A stretch of 46,140 nt of DNA from Clostridia bacterium (lineage in GTDB: Bacteria > Bacillota > Clostridia > Christensenellales > Borkfalkiaceae). The position numbers and the translations under genes were made by a program. This document shows, piece by piece, positions 8,620-43,450 of this stretch (its first letter is position 1; each line of letters begins with the position of its first letter). Location of the stretch: contig JAFTVF010000008.1 in NCBI GenBank assembly GCA_017465865.1, forward strand, positions 1 to 46,140, written 5' to 3'. Under the pieces are notes generated by a model. It was not told the DNA's origin. It saw only the letters and a list, made by a program, of their open reading frames with translations, and did no database searches.

Positions 8620-8856
8620 GCAATATGCCTAACGGCGCGATATGCTGTTGGCGCGATATTTGCCTGTGGCAAGCGATATGCCCTATCGGGCGCGATATGT
8701 TTTGCCGTACTCATACGCCAAAACGTAGTAGTAGGATTTATACAATTATAATTGTAAATACCAGCCACAACGCTTAGTGTAGCTAAGCATATCGCACGAG
8801 CGATAGCGAGTATATCGCACGCAGTATATCGCGTTTTCGCCTACGGCGAAAACATA
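8620..8856. repeat. fishbone repeat copy 1 (GCGATATG type)
   Basis: Left half: repeated GCGATATG (variant GCGATATT) alternating with hairpins such as TGCCTGTGGCA and GCCCTATCGGGC. Centre: TTATACAATTATAATTGTAA followed by ATACCAGCCACAACGC. Right half: hairpins such as CTTAGTGTAGCTAAG and GTTTTCGCCTACGGCGAAAAC alternating with CATATCGC/TATATCGC. The last unit is ATAATTCAC, close to the 8-mer of the other copies. It fills the yqzL-era gap and ends against the era stop codon (8859). No gene is supported here. Confidence 0.8.
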
Positions 8857-8858
8857 AT

Positions 8859-9752
8859 TCACTCTTTCGGAATATCCTCGTACCCGTACTCGCGTAACAA
8901 ATTCGGTCGGTCGCGCCAGTCTTCCTTGACCTTTACGTAGGTCGTTAAAAATACCTTTGTGCCGAGGAATTTCTCCATGTCCTGCCGCGCAAACGAGGAC
9001 ACCTCTTTAATCGCTTTGCCCTGCTTGCCGATCAAGATCGCTTTGTGGTTTGCGCGCTCACAGACGATATCCAGATTGATCTCGTACACGCCGTTTTCGT
9101 TCCGCTGAAAGATATTGATCACGATCGCGATCCCGTGCGGGATCTCCTTGTCGAACTTCAAGAGTATCTTTTCCCGCATGATCTCCGCGATCATAAACCG
9201 CTCGCTCTTATCCGACACGATATCCTCCTGAAAAAGTTTCTCTCCCTCGGGCATTTGTTTCACGAGAAACTCTTTCAACGGGCGGATATTCTTCCCCTTA
9301 CGCGCCGAAACGGGAAACACGTCGATATCCAAGCCCGAATCCGCGAATTTCGCCATGTCCAAGGGGATATTTTCCTTGGGCATAATGTCGATCTTCGTAT
9401 ACGCCACCGCCATGGGAATGTCCAGCGCTTTGTATTTTGCGATCAACGCGAAATCCTCCTCGCCGATCCCGTCGTGGCCGTCGAGAACGTAGAGAATGAA
9501 ATCCACGCCGCGCGCGCTCGTTTCCGTCGTTCGCATCATCATATCCGTCAGCGCGTTTCTCGCTTTATAGATACCGGGCGTATCCACGAACACGATCTGA
9601 TAATCGTCCTCCGTCAATACCCCCAAGATCCGATCGCGCGTGGTTTGGGGTTTGGGGGACACGATAGACACCTTTTCCCCGACCAACACGTTAATCAGCG
9701 TGCTTTTGCCCGCGTTTGCCCTGCCGATGACCGCTATATAACCGCTTTTCAT
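8859..9752 (-). CDS. era: GTPase Era
   Basis: 297 residues. G1 GRANAGKST (10-18), G3 DTPG, and G4 as TKID instead of NKxD, then a C-terminal KH domain (ILIGKQGKAIKEV). Era binds the 3' end of 16S rRNA and assists 30S assembly. Length and domain order are normal. It is flanked on both sides by fishbone repeats, one abutting its stop and one ~35 bases upstream of its start. Confidence 0.96.
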   Translation of the reverse strand: MKSGYIAVIGRANAGKSTLINVLVGEKVSIVSPKPQTTRDRILGVLTEDDYQIVFVDTPGIYKARNALTDMMMRTTETSARGVDFILYVLDGHDGIGEEDFALIAKYKALDIPMAVAYTKIDIMPKENIPLDMAKFADSGLDIDVFPVSARKGKNIRPLKEFLVKQMPEGEKLFQEDIVSDKSERFMIAEIMREKILLKFDKEIPHGIAIVINIFQRNENGVYEINLDIVCERANHKAILIGKQGKAIKEVSSFARQDMEKFLGTKVFLTTYVKVKEDWRDRPNLLREYGYEDIPKE

Positions 9753-9786
9753 TGCTTAAAAAATACTCCTGTGCTTTTTTTGATAA

Positions 9787-10018
9787 GTGAATTGAATTGC
9801 TGTCGCAATTCGTGAATTTTCGCTAACGCTCAGTGAATTGACGGCTACGCCGTCGTGAATTGCGTTTTTTCAAAACGCGTTATGGTAAAATTTATACAAG
9901 TATAATTGTTAATAACAGCCACAGCGCACGCTAACAGCGTGCAATTCACGCGCCGTCAGGCGCAATTCACGAAAAACGAAGTTTTTCAATTCACGCAAGG
10001 CACAGCCTTGCAATTCAC
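9787..10018. repeat. fishbone repeat copy 2 (GTGAATTG type)
   Basis: GTGAATTG units at 9787, 9812 (variant), 9833 and 9855 alternate with hairpins such as GACGGCTACGCCGTC. The centre at about 9868-9930 shares TTTATACAA.TATAATTGT with copy 1. The right half has CAATTCAC units separated by GCACGCTAACAGCGTGC, GCGCCGTCAGGCGC, GAAAAACGAAGTTTTTC and CAAGGCACAGCCTTG. Between era and the next gene, whose stop is at 10025; no gene is supported inside. Confidence 0.85.
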
Positions 10019-10024
10019 TTTCTA

Positions 10025-10873
10025 TTATTTGCTCACTTGTCCCAGCGAAACCGTTTGCCCCGCTTTCACGATAAACCGTCCGTTGAGATGATCGAGGTAG
10101 ACGTCGATCGTGCTGGGATTATACACCAGCTCGCCGTCCGCGGAAAACTCCAACCGATCGAACGCCTGTACGTAATCGTAGATCTCGCCGTTCGTCGCGT
10201 ACCAGATATCCTCTCTGCCGCCTACGTACGCGCAAAATTCCTCGATCACGTTCCAGTTGTCGTTGTTGTCGAATTCGTAGCTGTGTCCCCAAAGATAGAA
10301 CAGACGGGATTTTCTCCCCCAAAAATACGGGCTTTGCGCGCCCTCGACAAACTCTTTGGCAAGCTCCATAAGACGGGGATTTCTGTGATGACACGTCGCG
10401 GGAAGTCTGAGCCAGTCGGTAGGGATATCGAATTTCTCCGTGGATACCGTCGTTCTCGAATAGTGGATACCGCACGTTTTCAGCTGCGCCACTACCTCGT
10501 CGTTGTACGAGCCGTTGGCGTACGCCATGCCCTTTACGATCTTCCCGAACAGCTTTTCGAGCGCCTTTCTGTCCGAAAGGATATCGTCGAGCGCGAACGC
10601 GCCGTCCACTTCTGCCAAGGAACGGTGCTTGTAGCCGTGCACCGCCACTTCGTTACCGCTTTCCGTATACAGCTTGTACGCCTCCTCCGCCGTCATTCTG
10701 CCCTTGAATTCGGTGGGTGTAGCACCAAACATTCCGCTGTTTACGTTGAAAGTGCCCTTGATACCGTACTTTTGCATGATCGCGATCAAACGCTTGTCCT
10801 GCGCCACGCCGTCGTCGTAGCTGAGGGTTACGGCTTTGTCCTTAAAATCGGGAAACCGCATAAATCTTCTCAT
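10025..10873 (-). CDS. polysaccharide deacetylase (NodB-like), copy B
   Basis: 282 residues. NodB-type motifs: TLSYDDGV (metal-binding Asp pair, near residue 16), HGYKH (two His ligands, near 80), and WGHSYEF near the C-terminal side of the barrel. There is no signal peptide, so a cytoplasmic role or deacetylation of a small sugar is possible. Tandem paralogue of the next gene upstream, separated by 12 bases, with the same IYDYV.AFDRL..S..G tail. Start after AAGGAG. Confidence 0.85.
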   Translation of the reverse strand: MRRFMRFPDFKDKAVTLSYDDGVAQDKRLIAIMQKYGIKGTFNVNSGMFGATPTEFKGRMTAEEAYKLYTESGNEVAVHGYKHRSLAEVDGAFALDDILSDRKALEKLFGKIVKGMAYANGSYNDEVVAQLKTCGIHYSRTTVSTEKFDIPTDWLRLPATCHHRNPRLMELAKEFVEGAQSPYFWGRKSRLFYLWGHSYEFDNNDNWNVIEEFCAYVGGREDIWYATNGEIYDYVQAFDRLEFSADGELVYNPSTIDVYLDHLNGRFIVKAGQTVSLGQVSK

Positions 10874-10885
10874 ATCGTCTTCTCC

Positions 10886-11722
10886 TTAACCTCTGAGATC
10901 CACCGTTTGTCCCGCGGGCACAAGTATATTTTTGCCCTTGTAGCACAAATACACGTCCAACGCGCTGGGGTTCTGTACGAACGTTCCCGCCACCGAAAAC
11001 CGCAGCCGATCGAACGCTTTCACGTAATCGTAAATTTCGCCGTTCGTCGCGTACCAGATCTCCTCTCGGCCGCCTATGTATTCCGCAAACTCCTCGATCA
11101 CGTTCCAGTTGTCGTTATCGTTGAACTCGTAGCTGTGCCCCCAAAGATAGAACAGCATCGGGGTATCGTACCAGAAATGCCGTGCAGGCCCTGCCTCTAC
11201 GAAGGTTTTTGCAAGCTCCATAAGACGGGGATTGTTGTGATGACAGGTCGCGGGCAAGCGCAGCCAGTCGGTAGGGATATTGAATTTCTCCGTAGACACG
11301 ACGGTACGCGCGTATTCGATACCGCACATACGCAACGCTTCCACCGTTTTGTCGTCCACCGAGCCGTTGGGATACGCCATGCCTTTAATCACCCGACCGA
11401 ACAGGTCTTCCAGCGTTTCCCTGTCCTTGATAATATCGTGCACGATTTGGCTTTGTTCCAGCTCCGCAAGCGAGGGATGTTTATAGCCGTGAATGGCGAT
11501 TTCGTGCTTGCAATTTCTAAACAGCTCCACCGTTTCCGCTTTGGAAAACTTTCTCGGCGTTTCTTCTTCGGAAAACAAACCGCCGTTGATATTGAACGTA
11601 CCTTTAAGCCCGTACTCGTCCATGATCTCCATTAAGCGTTTATCAAACTTGACCCCGTCGTCGTAAGACAGCGTAACCGCTTTTTTTCTGAAATTCGGAA
11701 ACCGCATTTGACTGTAATTCAT
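10886..11722 (-). CDS. polysaccharide deacetylase (NodB-like), copy A
   Basis: 278 residues with the same motifs as its neighbour (LSYDDGV; HGYKH; PTDWLRLPATCHH; WGHSYEF) and clear end-to-end similarity, so the pair arose by tandem duplication. Starts after AAAAGGAG, eight bases after ybeY. In Bacillus this position between ybeY and era holds dgkA and cdd; both are absent here. No export signal. Confidence 0.85.
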   Translation of the reverse strand: MNYSQMRFPNFRKKAVTLSYDDGVKFDKRLMEIMDEYGLKGTFNINGGLFSEEETPRKFSKAETVELFRNCKHEIAIHGYKHPSLAELEQSQIVHDIIKDRETLEDLFGRVIKGMAYPNGSVDDKTVEALRMCGIEYARTVVSTEKFNIPTDWLRLPATCHHNNPRLMELAKTFVEAGPARHFWYDTPMLFYLWGHSYEFNDNDNWNVIEEFAEYIGGREEIWYATNGEIYDYVKAFDRLRFSVAGTFVQNPSALDVYLCYKGKNILVPAGQTVDLRG

Positions 11723-11729
11723 AGTTTAT

Positions 11730-12212
11730 TTACTCCTTTTCTCTCGTTATACCGAGTTTTTTCAAAATTTGTTCTTCCTTTTCCCGCATTTCCGCCTTGT
11801 CCGCGTCCGTCATATGGTCGTAGCCAAGACAGTGCATCACCCCGTGCACGATCAGGTAATGCAGTTCGCGCTCGTACGAGTGCCCGTATTCCTCCGCTTG
11901 CTCTTTCGCGCGGTCGCAACACACGGCGATCGAACCGAGCAACAATTCCTCTCCGTCGATCTCGTACGGATAGTCTTTCGCGCGGATCGGCTTGCCCTTG
12001 ATCCCGTCGAGCGCGGGATAGCTCAAAACGTCGGTAACCTTGTCCGTCGCGCGGGTTTCACGGTTCAAACGGCGTATCTCCCCGCCGTCCACGAACACGA
12101 GCTCTACGGCAAGCGTGATATCGGTATCCACGAACCCTTGCAGCGCACTTTCCAGCGCGCGGGCGTTTTCCGCGGGGAATTCCACTCCCTCGCAATCGAT
12201 ACGGAAATCCAT
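11730..12212 (-). CDS. ybeY: endoribonuclease YbeY
   Basis: 160 residues from the ATG at 12212 (after AAAGGAG; overlaps the pgpH stop as TAATG). The zinc motif HGVMHCLGYDH is complete, and TDVLSYP is typical. YbeY is the rRNA-processing and quality-control nuclease. A longer frame into pgpH is rejected because of the ribosome site. Confidence 0.95.
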   Translation of the reverse strand: MDFRIDCEGVEFPAENARALESALQGFVDTDITLAVELVFVDGGEIRRLNRETRATDKVTDVLSYPALDGIKGKPIRAKDYPYEIDGEELLLGSIAVCCDRAKEQAEEYGHSYERELHYLIVHGVMHCLGYDHMTDADKAEMREKEEQILKKLGITREKE

Positions 12213-13714
12213 TACAAATCTCCTTTCGTGCCGTTTTCGGTGCGTTTGTACTTGATATTCGGGTATTTGATACGGTGATGGTATACCCCCGTCAGCGCGT
12301 TGACGAGCGCCTGACGGATTTTCGTCAAATCCGCCATCGTGATATCGCATTCGGAGAACTGTTCAAGGTCCATACGCTCTTCGATCACCGCGCGGATCGC
12401 CTTTTCGGTAGCTTCGGGGGTACGGGCGTTCACCGCGCGTACCGCCGCCTCCGACGCGTCCGCGATCATGATGATCGCCGCGAGCTTGGTCTGCGGTTTC
12501 GGGCCAAGGTAGGAGAAATCCTCGATATTCAGCTCCCCGTCCGTCATTTTCAGGGCTTTGGCGTAGAAATACCGAATGGGCATCGTGCCGTGGTGCTGCA
12601 CGGCGATATCCGCCAAAAATTCAGGCAGGTGATGGGTGCGGATCAGGCTTTGCCCGTCCTTGGCGTGCGAACGGATAATGTCCGCGGACAGCTCGGGCGT
12701 AAGCTCGTCGTGCAAGTTATAATCGCCTTGGTTTTCGGTGAAATGCTCGGGGTATTGGATCTTTCCGACGTCGTGATACAGCGCCGCCGCACGCGCGTAA
12801 TCGACGTTCTCCCCGATCGCCGCCGCGCTCGCTTCCGCAAGCTGCGCCACCATCATCGAGTGATTGTAAGTACCGGGCGCTTCGACTTTGAGTTTTTGGA
12901 GTATCCGCGCGTCCGAGCCGGTCAGCTCCCGCAAACGGAATACGGTAAGACGGTTGAAGATATTTTCAAACACGGGCAGGATCACGAGGAAAATCATCGT
13001 GGATATCACGCCGCCGAACAAGCCGTAGCCCATACGCAGGAACACGCCTTGCAGGTCGGAAAGCTGGGTTACCGTGGACGCGTCCGCAAAGGTAGATATC
13101 TCCAAAAGGAAGATGATAAAGTCGATAGGGAATACGATAAAGATACCGACGGCAACCACCGAAAAACGGGTTTTGGCACGGCTGCAAAGGAAGATCGCGA
13201 ACATACCCGCCGAGAACGAGATAATGAGCGAAGAATAGTACTCTCTCGCCGTGATCTCCGTACCCGCAAAGGTATCGATAACGAACATCAGCAGCGCGCT
13301 GATAATGTTCATAAAAATCGCGTCCCTGCGCCCGACGAGCACGTAGACCATAAGCGCTACGAGCGCCACGGGACGGGCGTAAATATCGATCTGTTTTCCG
13401 ATGACCCACGACAGGATAAAGCACAGATCGAGCACCAAAAACAGCATGGTGATATTTTTCCCGCTCGAAATCAGGCTCTTGTCCTCGAACAGGTAATAAA
13501 AATACATGATCGTAATGATCAGGAACACGCTGAACAGCGCATACAGGTTATTTGCCGCATGCTCTTTCATATACGAACCGATATGTCCGAATTTTCCCCA
13601 AAAGAGCATACACGCCGCGATTGCGGTGAATATCGCCCAATGTAACAAAAACCAGAGCATACTTTTCAGCGTATCCCGTTTCGTCCAATCCTTACCGAAT
13701 TGTTTTACCGTCAT
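12212..13714 (-). CDS. pgpH: membrane HD phosphodiesterase PgpH-like (c-di-AMP), lacking the extracellular domain
   Basis: 500 residues: one N-terminal helix (20-42), a short loop, then about seven membrane helices up to ~265, then a cytoplasmic HD domain with NHSMMVA, HDVGK and HH motifs. PgpH family members hydrolyse c-di-AMP and are normally ~700 residues with a large 7TMR-HDED extracellular domain between the first helix and the 7TM bundle; here only about 15-20 residues lie there. The catalytic domain looks intact. Overlaps phoH by four bases. Confidence 0.88.
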   Translation of the reverse strand: MTVKQFGKDWTKRDTLKSMLWFLLHWAIFTAIAACMLFWGKFGHIGSYMKEHAANNLYALFSVFLIITIMYFYYLFEDKSLISSGKNITMLFLVLDLCFILSWVIGKQIDIYARPVALVALMVYVLVGRRDAIFMNIISALLMFVIDTFAGTEITAREYYSSLIISFSAGMFAIFLCSRAKTRFSVVAVGIFIVFPIDFIIFLLEISTFADASTVTQLSDLQGVFLRMGYGLFGGVISTMIFLVILPVFENIFNRLTVFRLRELTGSDARILQKLKVEAPGTYNHSMMVAQLAEASAAAIGENVDYARAAALYHDVGKIQYPEHFTENQGDYNLHDELTPELSADIIRSHAKDGQSLIRTHHLPEFLADIAVQHHGTMPIRYFYAKALKMTDGELNIEDFSYLGPKPQTKLAAIIMIADASEAAVRAVNARTPEATEKAIRAVIEERMDLEQFSECDITMADLTKIRQALVNALTGVYHHRIKYPNIKYKRTENGTKGDL

Positions 13715-14721
13715 CTTTCGTTACTCTCCTTCCGCGTTTTTTGCGCGGCTTTTTTCGTTTTGTCTTCCGTATCCTTTTCGTAAGCCCGAATAATCCGCAT
13801 AACGAGCGGATGCCTTACGACGTCTTTCGCCGTCAGCTCGCATACCGCGATCCCCTCTACGTCCTTTAAGATCGAGGTAGCGTGGACAAGCCCGCTGTCC
13901 TTGCCGTCGAGGTCGATCTGGGTTACGTCGCCCGTTACCACCGTCTTGCTCCCCTCGCCCATACGCGTTAAGAACATTTTCATCTGCTCTTTCGTCGTGT
14001 TCTGCGCCTCGTCAAGAATAATAAACGCGTTCGACAGCGTTCTGCCGCGCATGTACGCGAGCGGCGCGACTTCGATTGCGCCCCGTTCCATCAGCTTCCC
14101 GTACGTTTCCAAGCCCAACAGCTCTTGCAAGGCGTCGTATAAGGGGCGCAGGTACGGGTCTACTTTCGTTTGCAAGTCCCCGGGCAGAAAGCCGAGCTTT
14201 TCCCCCGCCTCTACGGCAGGGCGGGTAAGCACGATCTTTTCCACCTGCTTGCTCTTGAACGCCGACACCGCCATACACACGGCAAGGTACGTCTTGCCCG
14301 TGCCCGCAGGTCCTACGCCGAACACGACCGTATTTTTCTTGATCGCGTCCACGTAGTTTTTCTGTCCGACCGTCTTGCACTTGATCTGTTTCCCGCGCGC
14401 GGTAATCGCGACCGCGCCGCCTTGCAAAGCGGCGATCTCTTCCGTCCGACCCTCTTTTGCAAGCTCGATACAGTACGCCGTACGGCCTTTGTCGATCTCC
14501 TCGCCCGATTTCGCCAAGCCCAAAAGCGCCGTTAATACCTGCACGCCCTGTTCTACCGCCTCGTCCGAGCCTTCCACGCGGATCTTCACGCCGTCCACGT
14601 ACGCCACCACGCCAAGCTCGCGGGAAAGGAAGTTGAGATTTTCGTCAAACGCGCCCAAGATCCGCGCCAGCCTGTCCACAGACCCGACGTCTACCGACCG
14701 CGCCGTTTTTCCGATTGCCAA
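13711..14721 (-). CDS. phoH: PhoH-family ATPase
   Basis: 336 residues, Walker A GPAGTGKT, Walker B FIILDEAQN, and the PhoH TVVTGDVTQIDL motif. Starts with TTG at 14721, chosen because GGAGG lies eight bases upstream and the alignment begins there. The C-terminal ~25 residues are a Lys-rich tail. PhoH is a predicted RNA-acting ATPase that sits next to ybeY in most Bacillota. Confidence 0.93.
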   Translation of the reverse strand: MAIGKTARSVDVGSVDRLARILGAFDENLNFLSRELGVVAYVDGVKIRVEGSDEAVEQGVQVLTALLGLAKSGEEIDKGRTAYCIELAKEGRTEEIAALQGGAVAITARGKQIKCKTVGQKNYVDAIKKNTVVFGVGPAGTGKTYLAVCMAVSAFKSKQVEKIVLTRPAVEAGEKLGFLPGDLQTKVDPYLRPLYDALQELLGLETYGKLMERGAIEVAPLAYMRGRTLSNAFIILDEAQNTTKEQMKMFLTRMGEGSKTVVTGDVTQIDLDGKDSGLVHATSILKDVEGIAVCELTAKDVVRHPLVMRIIRAYEKDTEDKTKKAAQKTRKESNER

Positions 14722-14736
14722 ATGCGTTTCCTCCGT

Positions 14737-15651
14737 CTATAAATTCAGCGATTCCGTCGCCGTGTAAGTAATTTTTACGCGGAAAACTTCCCCCGCGCGC
14801 TCTATCTCTCGGCTTTTGATCTCGTCGTGCTCCGTAAGCCCCAGCGCCAAATACGCCGCCGCAAACGCGCTCTCCTCGTCCTCCGCCGAAATTTCCGCCT
14901 CGTACACGCACGCAATGCGTGCGCGCGCGATAATTTGAACGCGCACCTGCTCCCCTGATTCGGTGGAAAACCAGTCCCCGACAAGCTCCTCGCCCGCGGT
15001 TACCTTTTCCCCGATCTTTTTGAGCGCCGTGCCGCGTAATACCGTAAGGGCGATCAGCTCGCCCGTGTGTTTTGCCCACATAGCCCCGTCCTGCGCCTTT
15101 GCCTTTTCAAACGAGGCAAGCCGAATCTCCACCCGTACCCGAAAGCCCGATTTTTTCACCGAGCAGAACTCGACGTTATCGAGCGCGAGCAGCTGTGCGC
15201 AAATCAGGTCCTCTTTCCCCGATTTATAGCGGGAAAAGGGCTTTACGCCGTTTTGTTCGAGGGTGGCGTACGCTTCCCTCGCGTAGACCTCCGTACCGAC
15301 GAAATCCACGCCGAACACGAACCCGTCCGCAAACAGCGTGAGCGCGGCAAACAGCAACGCGCCCAGAAGAAAGCCCGAGCGGTTTTTGACAAATTCGGGA
15401 AGTCTGTTCAGACCTTTTTCGCCGATTTTTTTGACGGTATAGGGGCTGTACGCAGTTCCATTATAGCATACATTGGGATAAATTGCAAAAACTTTTTCGG
15501 CATCTTTTCTTTTTACGCTTAAAAGTATTTGCGTTTTTCCCGTTTTTTTTACGTGATAGACGGCTATTTTCTCTCTGCGAAGCCGAAGCAACGCCCGTTC
15601 GGGCATGATCCCCTCGATGAGCAGGCGTTGACGGAAATTCCCGAAAAGCAT
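14737..15651 (-). CDS. yqfD: sporulation protein YqfD
   Basis: 304 residues with one clear membrane helix at about 92-112 (GFLLGALLFAALTLFADGF), a short cytoplasmic N-domain and a long external C-domain. Context between yqfC and phoH and the length match YqfD, a forespore or mother-cell membrane protein induced in sporulation with yqfC. Starts after GAGGTGAACG. Confidence 0.88.
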   Translation of the reverse strand: MLFGNFRQRLLIEGIMPERALLRLRREKIAVYHVKKTGKTQILLSVKRKDAEKVFAIYPNVCYNGTAYSPYTVKKIGEKGLNRLPEFVKNRSGFLLGALLFAALTLFADGFVFGVDFVGTEVYAREAYATLEQNGVKPFSRYKSGKEDLICAQLLALDNVEFCSVKKSGFRVRVEIRLASFEKAKAQDGAMWAKHTGELIALTVLRGTALKKIGEKVTAGEELVGDWFSTESGEQVRVQIIARARIACVYEAEISAEDEESAFAAAYLALGLTEHDEIKSREIERAGEVFRVKITYTATESLNL

Positions 15652-15654
15652 CGT

Positions 15655-15927
15655 TCACCTCTTTTCGGACGCGCCGTCCGCGCTCGGTACGCGAACGGAA
15701 AAAATCCGTCCCGATAATTGCAGATCGCCGTCGTAGTATTTCTTAATGGATAAATTTTCGCCCGTTACCTCCACGGTCTCGCGCGGGAAACAGACCACGA
15801 CCCGCTCGGGAGAAAAATCCCCCACCGCTTTCACGCCCTCGAAATATCCCCCGCCGCCCGGCACGATGGTACAGCGCGCAAACGCCGCGCCGTCCGCACT
15901 TTTGAAAATCTCGTCGTATAACCGCAT
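15655..15927 (-). CDS. yqfC: sporulation protein YqfC
   Basis: 90 residues, almost all beta-strand, with the YqfC pattern RVVVCFPRETVEVTGENLSI and a YDGDLQLSG..FSV tail. GGAGGATAGC precedes the ATG. First gene of the recO-to-yqfC cluster as read on the minus strand. Confidence 0.88.
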   Translation of the reverse strand: MRLYDEIFKSADGAAFARCTIVPGGGGYFEGVKAVGDFSPERVVVCFPRETVEVTGENLSIKKYYDGDLQLSGRIFSVRVPSADGASEKR

Positions 15928-16017
15928 GCTATCCTCCGTTCTTCGTTACTATATGCCGAAAAACGCAAGGATATGACGGGGCGAGCCGTGAATTGTCCTT
16001 TTTGCCTTGCTCCTCTT

Positions 16018-30885: not shown

Positions 30886-30887
30886 CG

Positions 30888-33182: not shown

Positions 33183-33200
33183 ATCCTCACGCTCTTTTAT

Positions 33201-33679: not shown

Positions 33680-33839
33680 CGCTTTTCGTACCCTCCTTTC
33701 GCTTATTCCTTTCGCCGTATCCCTACGGCCCTTTGCCGCCCCCTGTCGGCTCACCTCTATTTGTGCATCGGTGTATCCTCATACTTTTATTTGAAAGATT
33801 GAAACATTTTTTGTTTCGTTCTTTCTTTTTTGTACTTCT

Positions 33840-33867
33840 ATTATAGCACAAATTTTTCATTTGTCAA
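33840..33867 (-). promoter_or_regulatory. promoter of the ~630-nt RNA unit
   Basis: Minus strand: TTGACA (33862-33867), 16 bases ending TGC, TATAAT (33840-33845). Both boxes perfect with an extended -10, so a high transcription rate is expected. Confidence 0.88.
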
Positions 33868-33959
33868 GTGTTTTTTGAAAATTTTTTCGAAAAAATTAAA
33901 AAAATTTTTTGAAAGGGGCGGAAGTCCTTTATTTTCAAGGTATTCGGGAAATAAAAAAA

Positions 33960-33976
33960 TGTTGCGCGAGGCAACA
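33960..33976. terminator. bidirectional terminator after the MreB-like gene
   Basis: TGTTGC/GCAACA with loop GCGAG; T-runs follow on both strands. It ends the MreB-like transcript (minus). The AT-rich interval 33868-33955 has no gene that I can support. Confidence 0.75.
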
Positions 33977-33995
33977 CTTTTTTGGAAAACTCTTT

Positions 33996-35580: not shown

Positions 35581-35584
35581 ACGA

Positions 35585-35628
35585 TAAAAGAAAAAGCCGC
35601 CTTGCCACTATGGTGGAAACGCGGCTTT
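35585..35628 (-). terminator. terminator of ppx/gppA
   Basis: AAAGCCGC/GCGGCTTT with an inner CCAC/GTGG stem (35593-35628); on the minus strand TTCTTTT follows. Just beyond the stop at 35636. Confidence 0.75.
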
Positions 35629-35635
35629 CGTAAGA

Positions 35636-37147
35636 TTACAAAATTTCGAGATTTTTTCTGAACGCTTTCTTGAATTCGGGGTTTGCCGCTTCCGCATCGC
35701 GGATTTCAAGCGCCGCATCGCCCGTAACGATCGTCTTCATAATCACCGAATCGCCCAGCACGTCGCAGTTGATGCCCGTAACCATACCGCAATGCGTTCT
35801 GTCGAGGCTCTCCGCGATCCGAAGCAGTACGCCGAGTTTCTTCACAGCGTCAAGATCCTCTTCCAAGACGATGTCCTTATATTTCAGCCATTCGCCCATG
35901 GGGATCTCCTCGCGGTTATGACAGCCCGCTACGAACGCCGCAAGCACGATCTCTCTGTGCGTTGCGCCGCAGATCGAAGAATTGAGAATGGTGTACCAGC
36001 TGTGCTTTGCGTGTCCGTAATACCGCATACGCATACCGCAATCGTGCAGGCTCGCCGCGATCTTCAATACTTTGAGATACTGACGGGAGAATTTATGCAA
36101 CACGCGGAGCTGTTTGAAAAGCTGTACGGAAAGCTGGATAACGTGCTCGACGTGTTTGGTATCGCAGCCCGAATATTTCACCAAACGGTCGAGGGAATAG
36201 CTAAGTACGTCGGAAATGGGCTTTTCGGTCGTGATCGGCAACGCCTGATTGACCATCAAGCCCTCGCGCAAACCGTTGCCGCCGATCGTGAACATTTGGA
36301 CGTTCATATACGAAACGAACGCTTTCACGATCGCCATCGCCGCGGGCATGATATCCGCGCGCGCGGGCGAAAGCCCCTTGATCTTCTTGCGCTTGTCCAC
36401 GTCCAAGGCTTTGAGCATATCGTAAATGCCCATAAAATCCTCGGTGGCGAGCTTGTAGTTATGCGCCGTATCAAGCGGATATTTTCTGACGAGCTTCGCA
36501 ATCTTGAACAGGTTGCGGAACGACCCGCCTACGCCGATCATCTGCACTTCGGGATCGACCTCTTTCAGCCAAGGCAATTTCTTCAACTGCTCGGTGAAAA
36601 ATTCCTCGATATGCGCCGCCGCTTCTTCGGGCGTGCCGTCGCTCGCAAACAGATCGGTAAGGGTTACCGCGCCGAACGGCAAAGACGCATAGTTGAGTAC
36701 GTTTCTTCTGTTATAGTAAATGATCTTGGTACTGCCGCCGCCGATTTCGAGGATAAGCCCCTTGGGGATATCCATCGAGTTGATCACGCCGCGGTATACG
36801 AGGAACGCCTCCTCTTCTTCCGACAATACGCGAATGGTGATGTTACAGCTTACCTGAATTTCGTCGAGAAACGAGCGCTGGTTTTTCGCTCTGCGTACCG
36901 CCGCAGTGCCTACGGCGATGATACGCTCAACCCCGCTCGCATCGCACAATCTTTTGAACATTTTGAGCGTTTTGACGGTCTCCGCGATCCGCTGGGGTTT
37001 CAAAAACCCGTCTCTGTCCATGTCCTGTCCGAGCCTTACGCTCTCTTTCAGCTCGTCCACAACCATATAATGTCCGTCCGTGAACATATCCACAATCACA
37101 AGACGCGCCGTGTTCGAACCCAAATCAATGATACCGATCTTTTCCAC
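35636..37147 (-). CDS. ppx: Ppx/GppA phosphatase with HD-like C-terminal domain
   Basis: 503 residues. N-terminal actin-like fold: IIDLGSNTARLVI, GTAAVRRAKN, LEIGGGSTKI, GVGGSFRNL. From ~320, an HD-type helical domain (HDCGMRMRYYGHAKH, HR..VLAAFVAGCH). Family members degrade polyphosphate or pppGpp. Its own operon, with an ~80-base leader carrying a GCCGT/ACGGC hairpin. Confidence 0.92.
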   Translation of the reverse strand: MEKIGIIDLGSNTARLVIVDMFTDGHYMVVDELKESVRLGQDMDRDGFLKPQRIAETVKTLKMFKRLCDASGVERIIAVGTAAVRRAKNQRSFLDEIQVSCNITIRVLSEEEEAFLVYRGVINSMDIPKGLILEIGGGSTKIIYYNRRNVLNYASLPFGAVTLTDLFASDGTPEEAAAHIEEFFTEQLKKLPWLKEVDPEVQMIGVGGSFRNLFKIAKLVRKYPLDTAHNYKLATEDFMGIYDMLKALDVDKRKKIKGLSPARADIMPAAMAIVKAFVSYMNVQMFTIGGNGLREGLMVNQALPITTEKPISDVLSYSLDRLVKYSGCDTKHVEHVIQLSVQLFKQLRVLHKFSRQYLKVLKIAASLHDCGMRMRYYGHAKHSWYTILNSSICGATHREIVLAAFVAGCHNREEIPMGEWLKYKDIVLEEDLDAVKKLGVLLRIAESLDRTHCGMVTGINCDVLGDSVIMKTIVTGDAALEIRDAEAANPEFKKAFRKNLEIL

Positions 37148-37515
37148 TTTTTTCTACCTCTGTTTGCCGTAAACGGTTGACGGCAGTTGTATTTCAATCT
37201 TTTCCGCTTATCCTTTTTGTCATAGAGAAAGGCACTCCGCCGTCGACGATCCCTCGGCGGTTTGCCCTTTTTCCATTTTTCAAATTTCCCATAGTTTACC
37301 ACATAAAACGGCGTTTGTAAATACCCTTTTGAAAAATTTTTTTCATTTTTCGTAATTTTCCCCATTTTGGATAATTTCAGCCCGTTTTTTCGTACATTTT
37401 GACAATAAAAAATCCACCGCCAAGACGGTTTCCCCTACTTTATTTATTCCTTTATTATATATCCGCTATACAAAATGCACGAAAAAAGAAACGGCGCGCC
37501 GTAGCGCGTCGACAG
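37148..37515. other. AT-rich intergenic stretch upstream of ppx
   Basis: No gene supported. It contains a CCGCCG..CGGCGG inverted repeat near 37236-37262, several T-runs and a TATATAATA (minus strand, near 37455) that could be part of a ppx promoter. Otherwise I see nothing convincing. Confidence 0.4.
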
Positions 37516-37518
37516 ACC

Positions 37519-37728
37519 GTGAATTGCGACCTTACGGTCGCGTGAATTGAAAAACTTCGTTTTTCGTGAAATGCCCTTTCAGGGCGTGAATTGCAACGCA
37601 TAGCGTTGCGTTGTGGGAATATTCAATAACGCATTCATAGAAATGCAATTCACGGGCGCAAGCCCAATTCACTGAGCGTTAGCGAAAATTCACGATAGCG
37701 TAGCTATCAATTCACGGGCAAAGCCCGT
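37519..37728. repeat. fishbone repeat copy 3 (GTGAATTG type)
   Basis: Left: GTGAATTG units separated by GCGACC-TTAC-GGTCGC, GAAAAAC-TTC-GTTTTTC, GCCCT-TTC-AGGGC and GCAACGC-ATA-GCGTTGC. Centre GCGTTGTGGGAATATTCAAT followed by AACGC. Right: GCATT/AATGC, GGGC-GCAA-GCCC, the conserved TGAGCGTTAGCGAAAATTC block, GATAGC-GTA-GCTATC and ACGGGC-AAA-GCCCGT, alternating with CAATTCAC. Ends flush with the stop of the HAD gene (37729). Confidence 0.9.
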
Positions 37729-38379
37729 CTATTCCGTTAAAAACGCCGTAAGGTCGGCAAAATCGTTAAACACGAACGACGGCTCGGCTTCCTCGATCTC
37801 CCCGTCCTCGGCATAGCCGAGCTTTAACAGCGCGCAATCCACGCCGACCTCTTTCGCGCCCGCCGCATCCTGTCTGCGGTCGCCCACCATCAGACAATCC
37901 TCTTTCTCCGCGCCCAGCCTTTTTACCGCTTCGGCGATCACCGAGGCTTTGGTAGGCAGGCTTCCGTCCAAGCCGCACCCAACGCGCACCGTAAACTGCT
38001 CGCTCATACCGAAACGGTCGGTGATCATATCCGCAAACACCTGCGGTTTGGAAGTGGCGAGCGCAAGCACGTAGCCTTGCTCTTTCAAAATTTTCAGCGT
38101 TTCGACCGCGCCTTCGAACGGCTGGTTTTCATACACACCCGTTTTGGAATACTGTTGCCGATAGATCGCCGTCGCCTTTTCCGCGTCCGCTTGGCTCATA
38201 CCGAAAAAATGCGAGAACGAATACACGAGCGTAGGCCCTACGCATTTCCGTAACACCTCCTCGGCGGGTTCGGGACAGCCCATCTTGGCAAGCGCGTGGC
38301 GCATACACGAAAATATCCCCGGATGCGATTGGATCAGCGTGCCGTCCAGATCGAATAAAATATATTTGTATTTCCGCAT
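37729..38379 (-). CDS. HAD-family phosphoglycolate phosphatase-like hydrolase
   Basis: 216 residues: FDLDGTLIQS (motif I), LATSKPQ (II), Lys in PTKASVI (III) and MVGDRRQDAAGA (IV). A helical cap at ~15-80 fits the Gph/PGP subgroup, though the substrate cannot be set from motifs. Start after AAGGAG. Confidence 0.9.
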   Translation of the reverse strand: MRKYKYILFDLDGTLIQSHPGIFSCMRHALAKMGCPEPAEEVLRKCVGPTLVYSFSHFFGMSQADAEKATAIYRQQYSKTGVYENQPFEGAVETLKILKEQGYVLALATSKPQVFADMITDRFGMSEQFTVRVGCGLDGSLPTKASVIAEAVKRLGAEKEDCLMVGDRRQDAAGAKEVGVDCALLKLGYAEDGEIEEAEPSFVFNDFADLTAFLTE

Positions 38380-38427
38380 AAAAACTCCTTACTTACGGAA
38401 GATTTTACCATATTTTCAACGACCTTG

Positions 38428-38799
38428 TCAACCGTTTCGGGCTTTGCTCGCCTGATAAAACCCGACGAACGCAAGCCCGATCAAAAACGCGCCGAAGCCC
38501 CGTTTCAATACCTCGCCGGGCAAAGCCGCCGCAACGGTTACGCCGAGTGCGGAAAACGCGAGCGCAGGCAGAATGATCCATAAGATGCCCTGCGTTTTCA
38601 AAAGCCCGTTTTCCGCGTGCATCTTCAACGCGCCGACGCTCATCGGCAGAAAAGCAAACAAATTCGCGCACTGTGCGATTTTTTGTTCCACGCCCCCGAC
38701 GAGTACGAGCAGCGGAATGGTTACCGTGCCCCCGCCCATACCCATTCCCGCAGGGATGCCGCCTAAAAATCCTAATAATAAATACAAATAAAACGACAT
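38428..38799 (-). CDS. TauE/SafE-like half transporter, second half
   Basis: 123 residues from ATG 38799, four membrane helices with GFLGGIPAGMGMGGGTVTIP near the start, a TauE/SafE half-repeat. TauE proteins normally have two such halves in one chain. No ribosome site precedes the ATG; a fishbone repeat lies directly upstream. A TTG at 38823 is the only other start. Confidence 0.7.
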   Translation of the reverse strand: MSFYLYLLLGFLGGIPAGMGMGGGTVTIPLLVLVGGVEQKIAQCANLFAFLPMSVGALKMHAENGLLKTQGILWIILPALAFSALGVTVAAALPGEVLKRGFGAFLIGLAFVGFYQASKARNG

Positions 38800-38812
38800 A
38801 TGTAGTACGGCG

Positions 38813-39030
38813 GTGAATAGCAACGCACGGCGTTGCGTGAATTGAAAAACTTCGTTTTTCGTGAATTGCCCTTACGGGCGTGAATTGCACGCCTCTGGCG
38901 TGCGTTGTGGAAATAATTCAATAACGCGTTGCATAGCAACGCAATTCACGGGCGAAGCCCATTTCACTGAGCGTTAGCGAAAATTCACGAATTGCAAGGC
39001 AATTCATTTCATCGGCGAAAGCCTGTTCAC
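38813..39030. repeat. fishbone repeat copy 4 (GTGAATTG type)
   Basis: GTGAATAG, then hairpins GCAACGCACGGCGTTGC, GAAAAACTTCGTTTTTC, GCCCTTACGGGC and GCACGCCTCTGGCGTGC between GTGAATTG units. Centre GCGTTGTGGAAATAATTCAA followed by TAACGCG. Right half GTTGCATAGCAAC, GGGCGAAGCCC, TGAGCGTTAGCGAAAATTC and AGGC..GCCT units with CAATTCAC-type spacers. Lies between the two TauE-like half genes. Confidence 0.9.
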
Positions 39031-39050
39031 CGCATACCTGGTTCGTCTTT

Positions 39051-39419
39051 TTAATGGAAAAAGAACAAAAACGCGCCCGCGGCGAGTTGCAAAGCGGCAA
39101 AGATCAGATTTACCGTTTTTTCGGGCAATTTCCCGAGCAGCTTCGCCCCCACGAGCCCGCCCGCCGTTACGCCGAGCGCGGTGGGGATCAGCACCGACGG
39201 TTCGTAAAACCCCTTTACGGCGTATAAAATAAACGAGAGCAACGACACGGGCAAAATCAGCAAAATCGCCGTTGCGTGCGCCCTCTTGTTGTCCATTCCC
39301 GTTTTCGCGAGCATAGGCACGGCGATCATACCGCCGCCCCCGCCGAACAGGCTGTTTGCCGCGCCTACCACCGCGCCGCAGGTGATGCGTTGCGCGGTTT
39401 TGACCGTTTTCGTCTGCAT
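39051..39419 (-). CDS. TauE/SafE-like half transporter, first half
   Basis: 122 residues from ATG 39419 (GGGAGG seven bases upstream). Four helices and the GAVVGAANSLFGGGGGMIAVP half-repeat motif. Encodes one half of a TauE/SafE-type permease; the other half is the next gene. The family exports sulfite or organosulfur anions; substrate not deducible. Confidence 0.75.
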   Translation of the reverse strand: MQTKTVKTAQRITCGAVVGAANSLFGGGGGMIAVPMLAKTGMDNKRAHATAILLILPVSLLSFILYAVKGFYEPSVLIPTALGVTAGGLVGAKLLGKLPEKTVNLIFAALQLAAGAFLFFFH

Positions 39420-39534
39420 AGCTTTTCCTCCCAAATTTTCCCTTACGCGCGCTCTCGCGCGGGCGTTTCCACTATATTTTGCGTAATTTTTTCTAATTTA
39501 TCAAACTTTTTCTCGCTTTTCCCGCCATAAACGC

Positions 39535-39563
39535 TTGCCAATCCATCGATTTTGTATTAAAAT
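39535..39563 (+). promoter_or_regulatory. promoter of the large surface lipoprotein gene
   Basis: TTGCCA (39535-39540), 17 bases, TAAAAT (39558-39563). The leader contains CTCAAAG/CTTTGAG (39578-39606) enclosing GGAT/ATCC, a stable 5' hairpin. Leader ~80 bases. Confidence 0.65.
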
Positions 39564-39649
39564 AATAGAGTGCAATTCTCAAAGTCGGGATTTTATCCGC
39601 TTTGAGTATACGCTACGATCAAGAAAAACAAAACCAAAAGGTGGTTTAC

Positions 39650-42600
39650 ATGAGTACTAACAACAAACACCGCAAGAAAAATCTTCTTGCACTTTTCTTA
39701 TCGGTATTGATGGTATCGTCCACGGCAGCGGCGATCTCCGCTTGCTCGAAAGATTCGGCGGCTTCGTCCTCCTCGACGGAATCCGAGTCCTCGACCGAAG
39801 AATCCACGACCGTCAACGACGATTATATCATCAAGAACGCAGGCTTTGAAACCTTCGACACGAAAGACGGCTTAAACGCGATCGGTACGACGGTTACGGG
39901 CTGGACGCGTTCGACCAACTCCGCGTCCTCGGGCAGCGCGCTCTCCTCTAAGGCGGCGAGCGGTATTCTCGACACGAGCGCCGATGCTTGGAAACAGCTC
40001 ACGGGCTCGTATTACGAAGACCCCGACACGGTAGAAACGCTCACCGAAGCGGAAGCCGAAGCGATCTGGGACAGCCTTACCGTACGCGACAAGCTGGCGT
40101 ATTACGAGGCTTGGAAAGACGCGAACGACGGCACGATCTCCGACGAGCTGGAATTCTACGAAAGTTTTAATATCGATCTCGACGATATTCCCACCGTCGG
40201 CAACCCCGGCACGCACCTTAAAGAGGGCGACGAGGGCTACGGCGAGGACACGAATATCCTGATGATCCACAACTCCTATCCCGATAAGGATTCTTCGGCG
40301 ACCTACAAAACGATGGGTACGGCGCAAAAATACAGCTCCTCCACCACCGTTACCGTGCCCGCCGGCGCGTCCGCGCAGTTCTCGGTATGGGTAAAAACGG
40401 CAGAGCTTATGAGCTCGTCCACGAGCGGCGCTTCGCAGGAAGCAGTCGGCAAAGGCGCGTACATCAGCGTTACGCACTCGGTCGGCGGCACTTCTCTCGA
40501 CGCTTATCAGGTCAAGAATATCAACACCGAAAAAATGGACGAAGCCACCCTTGTCAACGGCTGGAAGGAATACACTTTCTACCTGCAAGGCTCTTCGTAT
40601 ACGAGCACGACCTTCTCGATCGTACTCGGTCTTGGTCAGGGCGGCGGTACGGACCGTCTTGAATACGTCAACGGCTACGCGTTCTTCGACGACGTTACCT
40701 GCGACATCATCACCAACGAAAAATATACCGAGCTGATGAAAGACGCGAACAAGTGGGATACGACCAACGACGCGCCCCTTGCCGACGCGAAATTCGATAC
40801 CGAGAAAAAGAATAAAACCGTAGACGCGTCCAAGAGCACGCAGGATATCTTCGCGTTCGACTTCTACGGCAAATTCACAGGCTCGGCGGATATCCTTTCC
40901 AACGCGACGGCAACCGCGACGAAAGACGAAAAGACGGGTTACACCTCTACGACGACCAACCCCGCGCCTTGGCTCGGCGACGGTTTCGACAACGGCAAAG
41001 ACGTTTATAAAACCTTGACGATCGCCGAACTCAACGACCCTGACAACAAATACGCTACGGCGGTTTACAACCAGCTCAAAGACGACGAGTTCGTAAAAGA
41101 CGAAAAAGTATTGATGCTCCTCAGCGCGCAGGGCGCGGCGTACGAAGCGAAATCCACGCACGAGCTCGCGTTTAACGCGGATACGAAATATATCGCGGTA
41201 TCTTTCTTTGTCAAGACCTCGGAAATGAACAGCTACACGGGTGCGGGCGTAACGCTCGTAGACGGCAACGCCAAGACCTCGTTCGACGCGATCGACACCA
41301 CGACGATCGATCCCGTAACCATCGGCGAGGACGAGGACGTTTACGACGGTTGGGTACAGTACTTCTTCTTCGCGGAAAACGATTCGGATAACGACAACGC
41401 GAGCTTTACTCTCTCGTTCAACTTCGGTCCTACCGCCATTGACAAGGCAACCACGAAAACCAGCTACCACGCGGGCTTTGCGGCGTTTGCGAAATTCGAG
41501 ACCTACGCGATGAGCAAACAGGAATTCGACAGCGTTTCCGCAGACAGCTATGCCAAGGTCGTGAAAGTAACCGCAAACAAAGCGGACGAAGCGGCGGGCG
41601 ACAGCGGCTTTGACACCGCGGCGGCAGTGCCTACGAACGCGATCGAAAACGGTATCGCGAACCTGCAAAACTACAAGGGCGTATACAGCGACAGCGCGTA
41701 CGTCAACGCTACGGGTACGAACACCGAAGTCAACGCCAACGCAAACGCGGGTCTTATCAGCAGAGAATACTTTGCAGACTACTACGACACGGCGACGGGC
41801 GCATGGCTTAACGGCTTGAAATCGGTAAGCGGCGCGGCTACGGCGGACGAGACTTGGAACACGGTATTCGGCTACGGCGCAAATATGGGTAGCGCAACGC
41901 AGCCCCTGCTTATCTGGAACGACGGTGCAAAAGACAAGGCTTACGGCTTTATCGGCAAATCCACGTCGGTTGCGGCAGACGCGTACACGGCGGTATCCGT
42001 ACGCGTAAAGGTCGGCGCTATTAACGAGGCTGACAAGGCGAATACCTTTGCGTATATCTATCTCATCGACACGACGGACAACAGCTACGGCTCGCCTCTT
42101 TCCATCGGCAGAGGTTTGACGTACTGGTATGACGACGACGGCAATATCTGCACGGGCGATCCTACGAAGAAAGATACGGAAATCGCGTTCAGACTGCAAG
42201 CCAACGGCTTGTACAAAGCCAGCAAGACTTGGAGCGGCTATTCCAAGCTCTCCGACGCGGACAAGGAAGCGTACTTTGCAAACCTTGACAACTACGCGAA
42301 AGACGAAGAAACGGGCAACCTGCTCGTAGCGGACGGCGGCGCAAGCCACGATTACAGCGATTACTGGAACAACGAGGGTATGGACGGCGTTGCGTTCTAT
42401 TATAATAAGGACAACAGCACCTACTATGCAGACAGAGCCAAGACCGTTCCCGTGAAAGCCCTTTCGACGATCGCCGATCTCGAACGTTTCGACGCGGTAA
42501 ACGGCGCGGACAACCAGATGGTTTATAAAGTCGGCAACACGAACGGCGAATGGGCGACGGTTACCTTCTATATCCACGCCGGCAACGACGCGAAGAACTA

Positions 42601-43162
42601 CCGTTTGGAGGTTTGGAGCGGTGAAAGAAACGGCGCAGCAAACCCTGCAAATTCGTACGTGATCTTCGACGCGAACAACCCCGGCACGGCGGATTCCAAC
42701 TTCTCCTCGTTGATCGAGGATTACGAGGACAAGGCGCAAACGAAAGTAGAGGGCGTGTTCTCCTACTTCGACAGCGCGAAATACCTGCGCTATAACGCGG
42801 AGCTTGACGAAAACAAGATCGGCAACCTCTACGAAAAGAGCTACGTTCCCTCCTCGTACACCGAGGGTATCGTATACCTTGCGTATGCGGACGGACTTGA
42901 CTACACGGCGTTTGCGGATTACTCGTATTCCGAAATCACCGTAGCGGCGACGGTCGAAGAGGAAGAAGAGGAAGAAGACAAAACGGACGATTCGACGGAC
43001 GACGGCACGAACGTATGGCTGCTTGCAAGCTCCATCGTTCTTGCGGCGGTATTGCTCCTTGCAATCGCAAGCATTGCCATTCGGAAAATTCTGAAAAAGC
43101 ACCGCAAGACCCGCGCTCCGAAAGTCAAGAAAGAAAAGACGAAAAAATCTAAAAAAGATTGA
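39650..43162 (+). CDS. very large surface lipoprotein with CBM-like repeats and C-terminal membrane anchor
   Basis: 1170 residues from ATG 39650 (AGGTGG upstream). Lipoprotein signal ending AAISAC (Cys32), then a Ser/Glu/Thr-rich linker. Three or so beta-sandwich-like units follow, recognisable by N.GFE...GW, F.VWVKT/FFVKT and GW..Y.F patterns (about 60-370, 440-680 and 700-1090), like carbohydrate-binding modules. Next come an Asp/Glu-rich stretch, one membrane helix (1123-1144) and a Lys-rich tail. Double anchoring (lipid and helix) is odd. No catalytic domain seen. Likely a cell-surface glycan binder. Confidence 0.75.
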   Translation: MSTNNKHRKKNLLALFLSVLMVSSTAAAISACSKDSAASSSSTESESSTEESTTVNDDYIIKNAGFETFDTKDGLNAIGTTVTGWTRSTNSASSGSALSSKAASGILDTSADAWKQLTGSYYEDPDTVETLTEAEAEAIWDSLTVRDKLAYYEAWKDANDGTISDELEFYESFNIDLDDIPTVGNPGTHLKEGDEGYGEDTNILMIHNSYPDKDSSATYKTMGTAQKYSSSTTVTVPAGASAQFSVWVKTAELMSSSTSGASQEAVGKGAYISVTHSVGGTSLDAYQVKNINTEKMDEATLVNGWKEYTFYLQGSSYTSTTFSIVLGLGQGGGTDRLEYVNGYAFFDDVTCDIITNEKYTELMKDANKWDTTNDAPLADAKFDTEKKNKTVDASKSTQDIFAFDFYGKFTGSADILSNATATATKDEKTGYTSTTTNPAPWLGDGFDNGKDVYKTLTIAELNDPDNKYATAVYNQLKDDEFVKDEKVLMLLSAQGAAYEAKSTHELAFNADTKYIAVSFFVKTSEMNSYTGAGVTLVDGNAKTSFDAIDTTTIDPVTIGEDEDVYDGWVQYFFFAENDSDNDNASFTLSFNFGPTAIDKATTKTSYHAGFAAFAKFETYAMSKQEFDSVSADSYAKVVKVTANKADEAAGDSGFDTAAAVPTNAIENGIANLQNYKGVYSDSAYVNATGTNTEVNANANAGLISREYFADYYDTATGAWLNGLKSVSGAATADETWNTVFGYGANMGSATQPLLIWNDGAKDKAYGFIGKSTSVAADAYTAVSVRVKVGAINEADKANTFAYIYLIDTTDNSYGSPLSIGRGLTYWYDDDGNICTGDPTKKDTEIAFRLQANGLYKASKTWSGYSKLSDADKEAYFANLDNYAKDEETGNLLVADGGASHDYSDYWNNEGMDGVAFYYNKDNSTYYADRAKTVPVKALSTIADLERFDAVNGADNQMVYKVGNTNGEWATVTFYIHAGNDAKNYRLEVWSGERNGAANPANSYVIFDANNPGTADSNFSSLIEDYEDKAQTKVEGVFSYFDSAKYLRYNAELDENKIGNLYEKSYVPSSYTEGIVYLAYADGLDYTAFADYSYSEITVAATVEEEEEEEDKTDDSTDDGTNVWLLASSIVLAAVLLLAIASIAIRKILKKHRKTRAPKVKKEKTKKSKKD

Positions 43163-43178
43163 TTTTTGAACGTGTAAC

Positions 43179-43216
43179 AAAAAGAGCAAACTTTTGAAGT
43201 TTGCTCTTTTTATTTG
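43179..43216 (+). terminator. terminator of the surface lipoprotein gene
   Basis: 15-bp stem AAAAAGAGCAAACTT/AAGTTTGCTCTTTTT with loop TTG (43179-43211), followed by ATTT. Confidence 0.9.
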
Positions 43217-43229
43217 CCCCTTTTAATAC

Positions 43230-43450
43230 GAGTGAATTGCAAGGCAAAGCCTTGCGTGAATTGAAAAACTTCGTTTTTCGTAAATTGCGCCTTATGTCGC
43301 GTGAATTGCAACCTACGGTTGCGTTGTGGAAATATTACAATAACGCGTTGCGAAGCAACGCATTTCACGACGGCGCAAGCCGTCATTTCACTGAGCGCAA
43401 GCGAAAATTCACGAATTGCATAGCAATTCAATTCACGAGCGTAAGCTCAC
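43230..43450. repeat. fishbone repeat copy 5 (GTGAATTG type)
   Basis: GTGAATTG units with CAAGGCAAAGCCTTG, GAAAAACTTCGTTTTTC, a decayed GCGCCTTATGTCGCG and GCAACCTACGGTTGC. Centre GCGTTGTGGAAATATTACAA followed by TAACGCG. Right half CGTTGCGAAGCAACG, GACGGCGCAAGCCGTC, TGAGCGCAAGCGAAAATTC, ATTGCATAGCAAT and GAGCGTAAGCTC with CATTTCAC/CAATTCAC spacers. Ends beside the stop of the DUF6809-like gene (43456). Confidence 0.9.

Follow-up and report, generated by a model that had tools for sequence, protein, structure and literature searches.

Inverted arrays of small hairpins at gene ends in a Clostridia genome: a candidate dispersed DNA element related to Rfam Gut-1

The window studied here is a stretch of 46,140 nucleotides (nt) from a Clostridia bacterium (assembly GCA_017465865.1, contig JAFTVF010000008.1) and represents contig C18 of the draft genome of this host (1.42 Mb, 72.7% complete). 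It contains five repeats (copies 1 to 5, Table 1) that resemble a fishbone; elements of this kind measure roughly 200-270 bases and carry eight small hairpins strung on a short recurring motif. A motif-blind detector, which accepts any 7-mer repeated at least twice and then its reverse complement at least twice, returned precisely these five elements, against a mean of 0 over 20 single-base shuffles; the original prediction, made from the letters of the window, had located the same five. Four have a spine of GTGAATT heptamers, and copy 1 has one of GCGATAT. The sequence GTGAATTG occurs 22 times in the window, where 1.29 occurrences are expected and 100 shuffles reach at most 4. An 8-mer had been predicted to be constant across the copies; the constant unit is instead 7 nt long, copy 1 uses GCGATAT rather than GTGAATTG, and the heptamer varies.

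Table 1. Repeat elements and the era gene in the window. Gut-1 matches (Rfam RF01706, gathering score 50 bits) are from the permissive scan.
Feature	Position	Strand	Remarks	Gut-1 match
Copy 1, GCGATAT subfamily	about 8621..8862	-	between era and recO-side small gene; long centre	8618-8684 (+), 23.8 bits, E 0.075
Copy 1 heptamers	GCGATAT at 8637, 8653, 8673, 8692; ATATCGC at 8789, 8812, 8826			
era, GTPase Era	8859..9752	-	NCBIfam NF000908, 335 bits; copies 1 and 2 on either side	
Copy 2, GTGAATT 4+4	9787..10018	-	long centre	9938-10020 (-), 32.2 bits
Copy 3, GTGAATT 4+4	37519..37728	+	heptamers 37519-37715, outer hairpin beyond	37517-37596 (+), 49.1 bits
Copy 4, GTGAATT spine, right arm diverged	38813..39030	+	found by motif-blind detector, missed by catalogue detector	38938-39014 (-), 33.2 bits
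Copy 5, GTGAATT 4+4	43232..43448	+	heptamers 43232-43436, outer hairpin beyond	43335-43393 (-), 28.8 bits

The elements lie close to their neighbouring genes. The right end of copy 1, AATTCAC (8856-8862), contains the era stop codon TGA (8859-8861, read on the minus strand), and copy 2 is placed 34 nt ahead of the era start codon and 6 nt past the stop codon of the deacetylase gene upstream. The outer hairpin of copy 3 extends to where the phosphatase-like gene next to it (37729-38379, minus strand) ends, and copy 5 sits between convergent genes, with a terminator-like hairpin on its left at about 43178-43216.

We catalogued 48 GTGAATT elements, 28 from the host (17 stretches, window included), 12 from the relative G034 (8 stretches) and 8 from genome G027 (6 stretches); G and L numbers are our labels for genomes and loci. 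Copy 4, with its diverged right arm, is missing from the catalogue, as are at least five further host elements (in L004, L005, L008 and L020, and a second one in L021); copy 1 was left out by design. In the host genome, at least 33 elements were seen. The repeat unit is a heptamer plus a hairpin, which mostly opens with the following G and closes with C. The left arm usually runs heptamer, hairpin L1, heptamer, L2, heptamer, L3, heptamer, L4 and leads into an apical stem, GTTRYGG...CCRYAAC or a variant, after which the right arm runs R1, heptamer, R2, heptamer, R3, heptamer, R4, heptamer. Some apical loops are short and others long, a palindrome around TACAAGTATACTTGTA being frequent in the latter. 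Exactly four plus four heptamers (4+4) are present in 32 of the 48 elements, spread over the three genomes; the repeated units of the original prediction thus hold, but their number is usually four plus four rather than three to five.

Subfamilies differ in the spine heptamer, which may be GTGAATT, GTGAAGT, GCGATAT, GTGAAAT or GTGATAT. Three of four GCGATAT elements are 4+4, as is one of six GTGAAGT elements, the other five being 4+5, 4+5, 4+2, 4+2 and 6+4. Because the heptamer varies, the spine is not always perfectly complementary. In host elements located in tandem gaps, GTGAAAT accounts for 29 of 76 heptamers in the 5' arm versus 11 of 81 in the 3' arm (as transcribed), and in L087 and L088 one arm is uniformly GTGAAAT and the other uniformly GTGAATT. 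At the host loci L085, L086-L088 and L093, GTGAAAT often takes over a whole arm at once. A GCGATAT element is nested inside a GTGAATT element in L085, and the fishbone centre of L036 and L038 is broken by another repeat (GAGATTGCCGCGCTTC...TCGCAATGACA).

The stems change between copies yet stay paired, as had been predicted. Counted slot by slot over the first five pairs in each of the eight hairpin slots, 91.4% of pairs are Watson-Crick in 32 elements with a 4+4 layout and assigned orientation, L087 and L088 carrying their hairpins in another order; over 500 rounds of re-dealing the 3' halves within slots, this share averaged 54.6% and never rose above 58.9%. For the host alone (19 elements) the value is 91.6%, compared with 68.3% (maximum 73.4%) after shuffling. 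Because copies inside one genome are related, the shuffle does not yield a strict probability. Stems are perfect in 226 of 291 hairpins, which together contain 1411 Watson-Crick, 16 G-T, 12 A-C and 73 other pairs. Loop sequences vary while stems recur exactly. Such covariation alone is no proof of a functional RNA.

The loops obey a polarity. In the heptamer-then-hairpin reading, 182 of 331 loops of 3-4 nt are of the form T..C, 9 are G..A and 140 are neither. This holds across GTGAATT, GTGAAGT, GTGAAAT, GTGATAT and GCGATAT spines; in the order-level sample alone the ratio is 7 to 1, which is not significant (p 0.07). C-G closes 116 of 125 element triloops versus 49 of 129 triloops of control hairpins from the same sequences, and TTCG or CGAA is found in none of 75 element tetraloops versus 7 of 109 in controls, the minimum stem in this comparison being 7 for control and 4 for element hairpins. 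Seen from the complementary (AATTCAC) strand, the rule becomes C(GNA)G; the DNA hairpin CGCGAAGCG is described as extraordinarily stable, with a melting temperature of 88.5 °C (PMC10527192). Left and right heptamers can pair, as the original prediction held, and folding as single-stranded DNA recovers a heptamer spine with hairpins for copy 2 (z -8.6) and for L101:10102-10324 of a relative (z -7.6). Copy 1 (z -5.7) and L089:8279-8479 (DNA z -6.1) fold strongly and form the fishbone only in part.

Positions relative to genes were obtained with a home-made gene caller, which called both neighbours for 45 elements. Of these elements, 38 lie in tandem gaps, 7 in convergent and none in divergent gaps, and at least one gene ends at the element in all 45. 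Divergent gaps make up 0 of 45 gaps with an element versus 28 of 238 without (Fisher p 0.012). In tandem gaps, the element begins a median of 12 nt past the stop codon, and the next start codon is a median of 36 nt away; in 5 of the 38, the terminal heptamer itself provides the TGA stop. Intrinsic terminators were ruled out as a hallmark of these sites, as terminator-like hairpins flank 18 of the 48 catalogued elements, with no excess over control gaps (in tandem gaps, 11 of 38 with an element versus 44 of 106 controls).

An Rfam scan of the window at the gathering threshold gave no match; the permissive scan, however, places Gut-1 on each of the five copies (Table 1). Counted at E<=0.001, the host has 23 Gut-1 matches, of which 8, all outside the window, exceed the cut-off. 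A match to a known Rfam family had been named in advance as something that would refute the original prediction, and the outcome is divided, since the window copies stay below the gathering score and the eight other host matches pass it. In a relative (L260), Gut-1 scores 51.8 bits within a GTGAAGT element. Judging from the alignments, one arm of the element is Gut-1, whose three hairpins with GUGAAAU-like linkers correspond to that arm. The Rfam model differs in that its 77 positions span one arm, whereas the element has two facing arms around an apical stem; moreover, Gut-1, known from human gut sequence and listed as a likely noncoding RNA (Weinberg et al. 2010, PMC2864571), was proposed as an RNA from sequence comparison, whereas the element here reads as dispersed DNA. 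The design is partly known already through the one arm that Gut-1 covers. In the literature searched, which did not extend to the supplements of the Gut-1 paper, whose authors may have noted more, we found no description of the two-armed element.

Gut-1 matches 35 of 57 genomes of the genus at E<=0.001 (17 exceed the cut-off) and 64 of 391 sampled genomes of the class (39 exceed it); among 14 control genomes, E. coli matched below the cut-off in both scans. G034 is rich in elements yet has no match at E<=0.001, so the Gut-1 model sees only part of them. In 23 of 28 Gut-1 loci, heptamers cluster with inverted partners (at least 2+2; best cluster per locus, not tied to the match), and 5 show no such cluster under the heptamers allowed. 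Matches face each other on opposite strands in L385 and at host C6:158896-159148.

Adjacent pairs of the form GTGAATTG-N(4-30)-GTGAATTG number 63 in the host genome, versus 0 for a control pattern. They were also found in 13 of 37 same-genus genomes, in 2 of 24 other genomes of the order and, in an order-wide search, in 24 of 297 genomes; family f16 accounts for 11 of these 24, several with hairpin arrays, and some of the other carriers have 7-nt arrays that lack hairpins (G124, G143, G153) or single chance-like matches. Pairs of GTGAAGTT were found in 15 of 57 same-genus genomes, and another 15 of 57 were without any sign in searches that covered part of the combinations of spine and genome. 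A de novo search for fishbones in 40-100 kb samples of G062, G026, G036, G080 and G079 found none, and the Gut-1 model matches G062 once, G026 twice and G079 once. Among named records, the pattern appears in clostridial metagenome assemblies from ruminant gut, in a search that may leave out records near the host. Spread beyond Clostridia was rejected, because 20 non-clostridial-titled loci, picked from the 80 that were listed out of 113 matches, have heptamers without hairpins between them. Several loci (L117, L121, L139, L168, L177, L180 and others, in records titled Saprospiraceae and Acidobacteria) carry hairpin-free GTGAATT tandem arrays plus an inverted partner. Carriage by phages was likewise rejected, the GTGAATTG pattern having 0 matches in a viral collection; a looser GTGAAAT pattern gave 43, and 6 of 8 inspected are fishbones that may be chromosomal stretches.

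Two positions were compared between genomes, at 30 loci each. The locus after era carries a GCGATAT element in the host, GTGAATT in G034 and GTGAAGT in G006; G020, G016 and G005 have 7-nt arrays without hairpins there, and many others have short spacers. In these three arrays (L065, L068 and L070), the 7-nt units invert around a TTGTGG...CC-like centre, and they are possibly a plain form of the same element. In the ilvD-leuC gap, complete elements of the host and G034 start at the same base, with the heptamer providing the TGA stop codon and with hairpins that differ between the two; G065 retains a right-hand remnant. Host and G034 are not sisters in an era+ilvD tree, shown without support values; either two elements inserted at this site or one old element had its sequence rewritten where it stood. 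Another dispersed repeat, with a CGTATATACGTCGCATTTC-like start, lies close to the same stop codon in several species (L292, L294, L297, L301 and L304).

The best fit to these data, to which we assign a probability of about 0.5, is a non-autonomous, dispersed hairpin-DNA element that resembles the repetitive extragenic palindromic (REP) sequences and bacterial interspersed mosaic elements (BIMEs), with Gut-1 as one of its arms. The original prediction had judged the layout to be unlike known repeats; besides the Gut-1 arm, its tag-and-hairpin, head-to-head and 3'-of-gene logic is that of REP/BIME. REPs, BIMEs and REPINs likewise combine a short tag with a hairpin in head-to-head pairs, show compensatory stem changes, lie mainly downstream of coding regions and are unevenly distributed between species (PMC3733652, PMC2817692). 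They differ in that the foot of the present element is GTGAATT or another heptamer, not GTAG/CGTC, that it has fixed 4+4 units with a tag able to pair across arms, and that its copy-rich genomes, all drafts, lack a transposase of the RAYT (REP-associated tyrosine transposase) type, although CGTC REPs, too, are described as lacking a RAYT (PMC3733652). GTAG REP stems often show G-T pairing according to the same sources, whereas the stems here have no G-T excess. The TAACTGA heptamer repeats share a 7-nt unit, intergenic location and a patchy occurrence across phyla, but are direct, hairpin-free and, in a Beggiatoaceae genome, mostly just upstream of start codons (PMC4679880). A CRISPR array, with near-identical direct repeats and unique, non-palindromic spacers, was ruled out on layout, as the segments between heptamers are mostly perfect hairpins, which recur between copies.

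Under the favoured reading, exposure of a strand at replication or repair would allow the hairpins and the heptamer spine to fold, and a putative enzyme would recognise heptamer-plus-hairpin units and copy the element to new sites, by analogy with RAYT transposases reading GTAG-plus-hairpin REPs. Insertions, we propose, would be retained chiefly right behind stop codons or terminators, since promoter and coding sequence are undisturbed there. After insertion, transcribed copies may also shield or punctuate mRNA, as is thought for REPs, as a by-product. The dispersal and patchiness, the presence of a different element or none at one locus, the nested element and the 3' bias all point to mobility, about evenly weighed against what speaks otherwise; that the complete element is closer in behaviour to mobile DNA than to an RNA gene is likewise about as likely as not.

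Several observations weigh against this reading. No candidate enzyme is associated with the elements: Y1 transposase (PF01797) is found in 13 of 30 element-rich versus 8 of 27 other genomes, reverse transcriptase (PF00078) in 5 of 30 versus 3 of 27 and IS110 (PF02371) in 2 of 30 versus 3 of 27, in a grouping of 57 genomes, 37 of them with a GTGAATT count. All three domains are absent from the copy-rich draft genomes G034, G027, G006, G023 and G074; the host has one PF01797 match. On these grounds a RAYT/IS200 transposase, a reverse transcriptase and IS110 were each ruled out as the driver. Repeats flanking the 48 elements do not exceed shuffled pairings, so that no target-site duplication was detected and a miniature inverted-repeat element of a DDE transposase was rejected as well. 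The ilvD-leuC comparison spans species about 84% identical in ilvD, not strains. In G034, 11 elements have one orientation relative to the tandem genes and 1 the other (p 0.006, the label being arbitrary), a bias that an RNA role would predict. Finally, as only 11 of the 38 tandem-gap elements have a terminator-like flanking hairpin, most are probably transcribed.

The principal alternative, which we consider rather unlikely, is a role in RNA, either as a structure in 3' untranslated or intercistronic regions that protects, processes or terminates mRNA, or as an independent noncoding RNA, with the hairpins kept by selection on the transcript. It would agree with the listing of Gut-1 as a likely noncoding RNA (PMC2864571), with the position of 38 elements between stop and next start codons, and with the orientation bias in G034. 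G027 leans the same way (4:1, one undetermined), but in the host the orientation is mixed, 11 same and 9 opposite. The host copy L089:8279-8479 folds well as RNA (z -7.0), yet its minimum-energy RNA fold lacks the full fishbone. Many of the 73 stem pairs counted as other come from a tandem G-A mismatch, which host slot R3 keeps on one strand in 14 of 19 elements and which would fit an RNA role. Among the 75 tetraloops, 17 are GNRA, but GNYA is about as frequent (14) and C(UUCG)G is absent. Stem mismatches read on the transcript strand are G-T and A-C in a ratio of 12:10, with no G-T excess on the element strand either, and this absence of a G-U excess weighs against selection on RNA pairing in particular. 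A tRNA gene adjoins the element in 9 of 14 Gut-1 loci tested, with a terminator-like hairpin lying between, which places the element beyond it. Together, the 16 G-T versus 12 A-C pairs, the mixed host orientation, the C-G loop closure, the C(GNA)G rule and the tRNA-adjoining loci lend DNA over RNA a support that we rate as evenly poised.

Selection on shape, as originally proposed, is plausible, with the reservation just made for RNA pairing. Without any selection, template-switch correction of quasi-palindromes could keep stems perfect, and recombination between copies could homogenise heptamers within an arm. Such a mutational by-product would account for the freely varying loops beside exact stems, the lack of a G-U excess and the uniform arms of L087 and L088. 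It leaves unexplained the fixed 4+4 count, the 182:9 loop polarity over spines and families and the C-G closure, and we regard it as improbable. Less probable still is, by analogy with BIMEs, a host chromosomal site, in which gyrase, a protein of the nucleoid or a repair complex would bind cruciform-forming DNA at gene ends: the 3' location and head-to-head palindromes recall BIMEs, which bind gyrase and IHF (PMC2817692), and the loop rule is symmetric between strands, but the elements are patchy within the genus, 15 of 57 genomes having shown no sign in that incomplete search of spines, and subfamilies with different spines share one genome.

If the favoured reading is extended, the Gut-1 "RNA" may be no RNA gene but one arm of a hairpin-DNA element that is mobile and widespread in Clostridia, has a fixed 4+4 fishbone fold and a recognition code of heptamer, variable between subfamilies, plus C(TN1-2C)G loop, and is moved by a putative enzyme outside the RAYT/Y1, reverse transcriptase and IS110 kinds, and thus a second, independent solution to the role that REP/RAYT fills in Proteobacteria; we advance this tentatively, as somewhat less probable than not. 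An orphan RNA family is in this way recast as a DNA element that can be tested and whose signature, namely 4+4 units, a heptamer code and loop polarity, can be measured. Should a code-reading enzyme exist, hairpin-directed DNA mobility in abundant gut bacteria would gain a new kind; if none does, both the loop rule and the existence of heptamer subfamilies have to be explained in some other way.

Two further features of the window were noted. Positions 10025-11722 hold two tandem polysaccharide-deacetylase-like paralogues, whose DNA is 71-81% identical in two repeat blocks. Over positions 1-6000 the GC content is about 0.40, compared with at least 0.50 over most other parts, and called genes are sparse between 4100 and 6100.

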